Source: Gracilibacter sp. BRH_c7a | GTDB taxonomy: Bacteria; Bacillota; Desulfitobacteriia; Desulfitobacteriales; Syntrophobotulaceae | Length of the DNA: 64,000 nt | NCBI GenBank assembly: GCA_001516055.1 | Contig: LOEZ01000091.1 | Location: 1-64,000, forward strand | Direction of reading: 5' to 3' | Shown here: piece after piece, positions 30,578-31,855 of the stretch | Position numbering within the stretch: position 1 is the stretch's first letter | How the letters are laid out: each line of letters starts with the position of its first letter | The notes under the pieces: model-generated | The model's database searches: none | Seen by the model: the letters and a program-made list of their open reading frames with translations, nothing else | What the model was told of the DNA's origin: nothing | Position numbers and translations under genes: made by a program

Positions 30578-30895
30578 AATAAATAAAGCCTCTCAACCCA
30601 AAGGACGAAAGACTCGCGGTACCACCTTTATTCCGAAAAAAGTAACATTCTTTAAGACATTACTGCCCCACAAAAAAATCAATCAACACTTTCCCGGCAC
30701 TTTATAGCTATAACGGGCTACCCGCTGGTAACTACTAGGCAAAAGCTTTTCCCTACCATCCCTCCTGTGCGACCCCGGTTACGTATCGAGGAATCTTCCA
30801 CCTCCAGAGCATTATCCATGACTAAAATGCACCTGTCTATTCCCTCTCTAAACGACCGAACCTACCGTTTTTCACCATCATAGGGTTTATTAATT
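30578..30895 (-). promoter_or_regulatory. T-box riboswitch leader of valS
   Basis: The antiterminator core AGGTGGTACCGCGAG lies at about 30612-30628 on the minus strand. The terminator stem GTCTTTCGTCC-TTTG-GGTTGAGAGGC and the T-rich TTTATTTATT (30576-30612) follow. A GTC triplet in GGGGTCGCACAGG (about 30764-30776) may be the valine specifier, though I cannot fold stem I with certainty. Downstream valS agrees with valine sensing. Confidence 0.92.
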
Positions 30896-31070
30896 GTTTT
30901 CAATTTATAATAATTCATTATATCTTACACTCCCTAAATATGTCAAAAATTATTCTAGATGAATCAGCCGTAAAAGCTGTTTGGTAATTACAAGGGCCTC
31001 AACAGTCTTAATTACGTGCTCAGCAACATGACATAAAACAGCAAAGCGTAATATAATAAGCTTAGAAGTA

Positions 31071-31095
31071 ATTTGAATATTTTTAATATTCAAAT
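31071..31095. promoter_or_regulatory. Perfect palindrome, probable operator of the AbrB-RelE gene
   Basis: ATTTGAATATT (31071-31081) and AATATTCAAAT (31085-31095) form an 11-base perfect inverted repeat with a TTT centre. It ends 27 bases before the start codon, where an autoregulatory antitoxin-type protein would bind. Confidence 0.6.
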
Positions 31096-31122
31096 ATATA
31101 AAGAATGTTTGGAGGGGAACTG

Positions 31123-31788
31123 ATGAAAAGTTACAGGGTAAAGATGAAGGCTCGTGGAGAAATCGCTCTGCCTGCTGAGCTGCAGAATTTCCTCGGTCTT
31201 ATGCCGGGCGATTACCTAGAAATAAGAATAGATCCTGAAGGCAAACTTAATCTGTGTACTGCAGAACGTTCAGTAGGTCCGTTATCTGATTTCTTCGAAG
31301 ATTTCATTCTTAATGACCTTCATAAAGAGGGGTGTTCCGGAGACCTGCTGCAAACGAGGTACCTTGAACGGAAAATCCAGTTGAGTACAGTATTGGATCG
31401 TTTGTCAGAAGAAGCCCGCCTCTCTTTAAGTCAAGGACATACGTTATGGTGGCGTGAAATTCCCATACTTGATAATGGTCATCCACAGTATCAAAGTGAA
31501 GAGTGGAAGGTATTCCTTACAAGTAGAGCCGAAAGGAATCTAATTAAACTGCAGGGGAGGGTTCTTAAGGAAATCCCTCAAGTGATGTTAAACTTAGAGC
31601 ATGACCCGTTAGAGTTTAAACGTTTAAACGGACCCTATTATTCGATTCACAGAGTATCACTAGCCAGTGAGATATCAAAGCATTACCGAGTGATATATAC
31701 TGTTTTCCCTGAAGAAAAAGCGGTGGAGATCCTAACTGTGGGAGAACGAAAAGAAATCTATGATTTCTTGAAGGGAATGGCTCTCTAG
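31123..31788 (+). CDS. AbrB-like / RelE-like single-chain fusion protein
   Basis: A 221-residue protein. Residues about 1-48 form an AbrB/SpoVT swapped-hairpin domain (KARGEIALPAELQNFLGL, PGDYLEIRIDPEGKL), the type used by antitoxins and transition regulators. Residues about 128-219 resemble a RelE/ParE toxin (WKVFLTSRAERNLIKL, LNGPYYSIHRVSL, HYRVIYTVFPEEKAVEI, VGERKEIYDFL). About 80 helical residues link them. In toxin-antitoxin pairs these are separate genes. GGAGGGG precedes the ATG at 31123. It has its own palindrome upstream and a terminator downstream. Function unproven; the toxin half may be inactive. Confidence 0.75.
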   Translation: MKSYRVKMKARGEIALPAELQNFLGLMPGDYLEIRIDPEGKLNLCTAERSVGPLSDFFEDFILNDLHKEGCSGDLLQTRYLERKIQLSTVLDRLSEEARLSLSQGHTLWWREIPILDNGHPQYQSEEWKVFLTSRAERNLIKLQGRVLKEIPQVMLNLEHDPLEFKRLNGPYYSIHRVSLASEISKHYRVIYTVFPEEKAVEILTVGERKEIYDFLKGMAL

Positions 31789-31824
31789 GGGAGCAAAATA
31801 AAGATGGTCAAGTCCTTAAGTTGA

Positions 31825-31855
31825 GACCCGTATCATCACATGATACGGGTCTTTT
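31825..31855 (+). terminator. Terminator after the AbrB-RelE fusion gene
   Basis: GACCCGTATCAT (31825-31836) pairs perfectly with ATGATACGGGTC (31840-31851), followed by TTTT. The convergent flxA stop is just beyond. Confidence 0.85.

Follow-up and report, generated by a model that had tools for sequence, protein, structure and literature searches.

The function of type II toxin-antitoxin systems is usually explained by the differing lifetimes or ratios of two separate proteins. Fusions of both partners in one gene are known for toxins of the BECR fold, with 195 such genes recorded (Gerdes, 2025; PMC11980606), and Table 2 of that survey gives combinations such as YefM-YoeB, PrlF-YhaV, and ParD-ParE, in which the antitoxin comes first. 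EzeT of E. coli carries an N-terminal antitoxin that is fused to a zeta-type toxin and acts in cis, and it was proposed that cleavage or partial digestion activates this protein (PMC4826407). A Phd-RelE fusion of Ralstonia eutropha is thought to be truncated and inactive (cited in PMC4826407). CapRel, which likewise holds both partners in a single polypeptide, is a direct sensor of phage proteins (PMC9712102, PMC13423816), and the CARF-RelE protein Cami1 joins a control domain to RelE in one chain (cited in PMC11980606).

The gene described here, located in a stretch of 64,000 nucleotides that was analyzed as a whole (the window), encodes a BECR toxin and a recognized antitoxin domain in one gene with the antitoxin first, as do the fusions surveyed by Gerdes (2025). 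However, the combination of an AbrB/MazE-type antitoxin with a RelE/ParE-like toxin does not appear in Table 2 of that survey (PMC11980606), and the combinations listed there have low counts, whereas the present fusion is fixed in several genera, all of anaerobes. A literature search likewise found no paper on an AbrB-RelE combination. The fusion shares with EzeT the single chain containing an antitoxin, while the kinase toxin of EzeT has an unrelated fold. With the Phd-RelE protein it shares the antitoxin-RelE chain, but differs in that, by sequence, it has kept its active site and its antitoxin body intact. As in CapRel and Cami1, one chain houses a translation toxin together with a controlling part, and the toxin of Cami1 is also a RelE domain; still, the toxin domain of CapRel and the sensor domain of Cami1 are unrelated to the parts of the fusion, and Pfam and NCBIfam scans found neither an alarmone-synthetase nor a CARF domain in it, which places it outside both groups. 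The novel points are the AbrB-RelE combination, the fact that several genera have it fixed, and a conserved, apparently private operator.

Gene layout

The features of the locus are listed in Table 1. In addition to the start codon given there, an in-frame ATG is located upstream at 31105, from which a product of 227 amino acids would result. Since 3.0 promoter-like sites of this quality are expected by chance in the region, the promoter assignment rests mainly on its position in front of the operator and the gene. The inverted repeat behind the gene was missed by the terminator scan.

Table 1. Features of the fusion gene and its surroundings (positions in the window).
Feature	Position	Strand	Basis
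valS T-box leader	30598..30890	-	Rfam match
Promoter-like site ATGACA-18-TATAAT	31028..31057	+	11/12 match
Inverted repeat ATTTGAATATT-TTT-AATATTCAAAT, probable operator	31071..31095	.	directly behind -10 box
Ribosome-binding site GGAGGGG	31111..31117	+	sequence; 5 nt before ATG 31123
Fusion gene, 221 codons, ATG 31123, TAG 31786-31788	31123..31788	+	read from sequence
AbrB/MazE-type domain, residues 1-48	31123..31266	+	profile matches
Antitoxin body, residues 49-105, predicted helical	31267..31437	+	homology to C-terminal part of stand-alone antitoxins
Variable hinge, residues 106-127, gene junction	31438..31503	+	lowest conservation
RelE-type (BECR) toxin domain, residues 128-221	31504..31785	+	PF05016, fold model, active-site residues
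Inverted repeat AGACCCGTATCAT-CAC-ATGATACGGGTCT, then TTTTCATT; probable terminator	31824..31852	.	sequence

The fusion gene stands alone between the divergent valS, which is preceded by a T-box leader, and a convergent gene cluster, which from our own reading of the sequences we take to encode iron-sulfur and flavin proteins; by layout it is monocistronic. The T-box was the sole match of the Rfam scan, in which no RNA element was found at the palindrome. This leader scores 78.3 bits, below the gathering score of 93, and so escapes the default Rfam threshold.

Two-gene type II modules encode toxin and antitoxin as two proteins, which does not apply here. The reading frame is uninterrupted, and no in-frame ATG, GTG or TTG occurs between codons 94 and 154, which rules out an internal start yielding free RelE. 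Moreover, no antitoxin-like open reading frame was found in the 450-nt flanks of the gene. On these three grounds the locus is not a bicistronic module. A weak BLAST match in the same flanks proved to be due to chance.

The toxin half

A first-pass annotation, made from the sequence alone, had described an antitoxin-type DNA-binding part and a RelE part in one chain of 221 residues, and this description is borne out by the single open reading frame together with profile matches in both halves. The C-terminus matches the Pfam family ParE_toxin (PF05016) over residues 130-213 with an E-value of 1.3e-6, above the curated cut-off; across the family, PF05016 is matched by 20 of 23 members and PF15781 by 14. 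A model of the RelE domain, built from a nine-row alignment that included viral RelE relatives, showed RelE topology at a pLDDT of 79.7. Its best Foldseek match was E. coli RelE, with a Z-score of 10.7 to the ribosome-bound form, and further matches comprised M. tuberculosis RelG (RelBE2), YoeB and others. The fold prediction that the annotation had proposed as a check therefore supports the assignment at a pLDDT of about 80, and profile and model together place this half in the RelE branch of the BECR toxins (RelE/ParE).

The equivalents of the E. coli RelE residues K52, R61, R81, and Y87 are R177, R189, R209, and Y213, respectively. All three arginines are invariant in the 23 aligned sequences, whereas Y213 is a tyrosine in 21 and a phenylalanine in two of them; a comparison of the catalytic residues had been suggested as a check in the first-pass annotation. 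K166 and L168 in the decoding-centre loop are invariant too, and the position of RelE K54 is occupied by S179 in the window and by serine or alanine in the members. In E. coli RelE, cleavage was lowered by the exchanges R61A, R81A, and Y87A, no significant effect was seen for K52A, K54A, and Y87F, and R61, R81, and Y87 matter most (PMC2807027). As equivalents of these latter three are kept in the fusion and changes at K52 and K54 are without significant effect in RelE, the active site, judged by its sequence, is intact.

This finding is accompanied by low rates of amino acid change. A comparison of the window with its sister gave a dN/dS of about 0.11, alike in both halves (overall dN about 0.06 and dS about 0.5-0.6; RelE part 0.07/0.69), and judged from these rates purifying selection still acts on both halves and on the RelE active site within them. 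Gyrase inhibitors of the ParE type have the BECR fold without the RNase catalytic residues, and these residues are present here, a feature that sets the toxin half apart from that group. An identity of the toxin half with YhaV was rejected, as PF05016 was matched instead and no YhaV model reached an E-value of up to 10; nor is the protein a PrlF-YhaV fusion, with PrlF matched only at E 0.1 (Pfam).

The antitoxin half and the hinge

At the N-terminus, residues 5-44 match the AbrB model TIGR01439 with an E-value of 5e-5, which for this member alone is under the curated cut-off. PF04014 was found in 9 of the 23 members with a best E-value of 6e-7, the window member lying below the curated cut-offs, and a PDB search with the family profile gave B. 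subtilis AbrB (E 3e-5). The AbrB/MazE assignment thus holds at the family level. The N-terminal model, inspected for the swapped-hairpin fold, is of low confidence (pLDDT 38-58). Position 13 is a glutamate, where AbrB has a DNA-contacting arginine, and for this reason DNA binding by the AbrB part may be weak.

The region behind this domain had been regarded as a long linker in the first-pass annotation, a view that does not hold, since residues from about 49 to 105 form a conserved antitoxin body homologous to stand-alone antitoxins. The latter align to residues 1-105 of the fusion via the signature (E)DxIxxDLxxxG...ERKxxLxxxL, and helices are predicted for residues 54-68 and 73-104 in a low-confidence full-length model. 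A full-length structure model from a two-row alignment was discarded for too weak confidence, and a mixed alignment with split partners because the N-termini of the toxins were misaligned. The sole poorly conserved part is the stretch of residues 101-127, where conservation is 0.59 compared to 0.71-0.82 elsewhere.

A cysteine at codon 71 (31333-31335), situated in a G-C-S-G-D motif of the antitoxin body, is present in 21 of the 23 fused proteins but missing from most split antitoxins; it is possible that it serves as a sensing residue.

Distribution and origin of the fusion

Among 82 genomes from the class, the fusion was found in 30, counting the own genome, as one gene each with an uninterrupted frame. 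Its homologues are 45-88% identical and essentially full length but for one, which is split over two contig ends, and the 23 aligned sequences have a mean column identity of 74%. The homologue survey suggested in the first-pass annotation hence recovered the same fusion, and the 29 other genomes carrying the uninterrupted frame rule out the frameshift that had been named there as a possible objection. That a sequencing frameshift or a lost stop codon joined two genes in one assembly is accordingly so improbable as to be negligible.

In a genus here called g15, which at a guess could be Desulfosporosinus, the same flanking genes are present in 11-12 genomes; judged from sequence reading only, we take one flank to encode an aminotransferase, a DsrE-like and an RNase H-like protein, and the opposite flank a methyltransferase together with a very large protein. 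A different conserved gene set adjoins the fusion in the genera g12, g17, and g19, and in the genus of the window it is found beside valS and an electron-transfer cluster. A search of 398 genomes from the phylum with a profile of the fusion gave full-length fusions only in the order of the window, so that their absence outside the class refers to a 398-genome sample of one phylum. A role as mobile cargo was rejected, as neither a phage match nor a relative of the fusion on a viral contig was found; one distant plasmid RelE was matched.

Elsewhere in the 398 genomes, the profile matched loci in which a single stop codon interrupts the match or two adjacent genes share it. At these loci, an AbrB-type gene of about 110-130 residues lies immediately upstream of a RelE gene that encodes about 93-105 residues. 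Such pairs also occur on viral contigs (AbrB-type antitoxin and RelE pairs on the IMG/VR contigs L080-L086 and L093-L099); the split relatives are mobile, and the fusion was not seen on IMG/VR viral contigs. A separate antitoxin search in 199 genomes yielded 10 stand-alone matches in which a RelE gene starts about 10 nt or less from the antitoxin stop codon, and several matches to the AbrB domain only that have other partners, e.g., PIN toxins. At two loci, antitoxins of this type (L061, 1489-1830; L133, 1345-1824) have no recognizable RelE gene downstream.

The bicistronic Bacillota operons of AbrB/MazE and RelE/ParE-like (PF15781/PF05016) proteins are homologous to the fusion over its full length and have the same domain order, but encode two proteins instead of one. 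Compared to these split pairs, the fused chain is extended by a short insert behind the AbrB domain and by a longer hinge, and its invariant R177, the equivalent of K52, is lacking in the split toxins examined. The split toxins tested matched PF15781 best, which the survey of Gerdes (2025; PMC11980606) places in one cluster with the RelE toxins that cleave mRNA. In a phylogenetic tree, fused and split sequences were parted by a branch with 100/100 support and the fused ones form a single side, which means that a single fusion event suffices; several split sequences form long branches, which makes the choice of any one of them as sister of the fusion tentative. These relationships show that the fusion descends from a two-gene operon by joining of the reading frames, most simply once.

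The palindrome as putative operator

The perfect 11-base palindrome reported in front of the gene was confirmed: its arms (31071-31081 and 31085-31095) are 11 nt long each, 100% complementary and separated by a 3-nt spacer. An arm of 11 nt was reached in 4 of 3000 simulated 200-nt upstream regions of matched dinucleotide composition, and the 64-kb window contains such arms at four places only, another one being the terminator-like repeat of this gene. In most g15 genomes the core GAATATT-N3-AATATT precedes the gene with 12-13 of 13 matches, often shortly downstream of a -10-like hexamer, within intergenic DNA that is barely alignable with that of the window; since the g15 promoters share descent, these recurrences are not independent. 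The sister genome, whose homologue is 88% identical, has a palindrome with an imperfect right arm, and the motif is absent before the g12, g17, and g19 genes.

The extended site occurs exactly once in the own genome of 4.1 Mb, namely at this promoter, and three relatives have exact copies only in front of the orthologue. Near-matches in the own genome showed no clear excess (17 vs. 10 for the control), which gives no sign of a regulon, and a wider regulon under this operator was rejected on the same grounds. As its core is found again behind the -10 box of relatives and the genome holds no other exact copy, the palindrome looks like a private autoregulatory operator.

Four copies with two mismatches in the own genome (L101-L104) all lie outside predicted open reading frames of at least 70 amino acids; either they act as weak secondary targets, or such copies arise by chance in AT-rich DNA. 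In many g15 promoters the operator core is followed by TTGTTGAA or TTGACGAA (e.g., L007, about 1420-1430), which resembles the consensus of a Spo0A box.

Proposed mechanism and alternatives

On balance, the sequence features make it fairly probable that the fusion is an autoregulated, cis-inhibited RNase of the RelE type, i.e., a one-gene toxin-antitoxin unit that arose from a two-gene operon. The protein would dimerize through its AbrB parts, and the dimer would bind to the palindrome and repress its own transcription. We infer that the antitoxin half neutralizes the toxin half in cis, with the helical body (residues 49-105) folding over the RelE domain, which would thereby be barred from the ribosomal A site. 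As both halves are always present 1:1, the operator could read only the amount of protein and not a toxin:antitoxin ratio, and classical ratio sensing (conditional cooperativity) is thus excluded. Release of the toxin would have to be an event acting on the chain itself; by default this might be the loss of the antitoxin half by proteolysis, which would start at the N-terminus or cut within the variable hinge; alternatively, a trigger molecule might bind to the chain, as happens in CapRel. Proteolysis, which the first-pass annotation had also considered, is one among several possible triggers. The freed RelE domain would be expected to cut mRNA on ribosomes, in a ribosome-dependent manner. Altogether, the fusion is probably a self-locked switch in stress or defence. 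The more specific proposal of a chromosomally fixed, self-locked RelE RNase, whose cis antitoxin would act as both repressor and lock and which a chain-directed signal would open, is put forward as a tentative one.

It is conceivable, though rather unlikely, that the antitoxin half is not degraded but serves as the sensor of a trigger-gated defence protein that is opened by a phage or host signal. CapRel and Cami1 are precedents for such a design, the RelE domain of Cami1 is among the fold matches of the toxin-half model, and the split relatives occur on viral contigs. On the other hand, the fusion lies in a conserved neighborhood of ordinary genes and not in a defence island, PADLOC returned no match for it and no known defence family, and the antitoxin half is among the best conserved parts instead of evolving fast. 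The single-copy, syntenic inheritance across a genus and the purifying selection would also suit a domesticated regulator or ribosome-associated RNase, a protein that would not be a latent poison but would use its preserved active site for mild, regulated RNA processing; fixation at conserved chromosomal places could fit a protein whose toxin role was lost and whose active site was put to another use. We nevertheless consider this improbable, as all key RelE catalytic residues are retained and the antitoxin body is co-conserved, which is to be expected if inhibition matters. The first-pass annotation had additionally offered a regulator with a borrowed toxin fold. A pure transcription factor of this kind, with a dead RelE fold serving dimerization or ligand binding, would account for the AbrB domain and the operator-like palindrome, but it is disfavored to the point of being very improbable by the invariant catalytic arginines, the strong purifying selection on the RelE half (dN/dS about 0.1) and the near-match counts, which gave no regulon.

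In the fusion the covalent link sets a 1:1 ratio, and still the active site and the antitoxin body, as well as an operator motif in two genera, have persisted through long divergence. If the protein is indeed a cis-inhibited toxin-antitoxin unit, it would offer a clean test of toxin-antitoxin function without ratio sensing and of the events that release a cis-inhibited toxin, as well as a natural fused reference for the uncharacterized operons of AbrB and ParE-like (PF15781) proteins.

Other toxin-antitoxin genes

The own genome also encodes an AbrB-type antitoxin with a PIN-type toxin as an ordinary two-gene pair (L003, 1399-1758 and 935-1402), and apparent Phd/YefM-type antitoxins with ParE-family toxins at two further loci (L073, 1224-1788; L074, 1196-1809). 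Separately, at the locus L063 (391-2163), a RelE domain is found at the N-terminus of a long UvrD-helicase-like protein, the sequence of which is partly masked.
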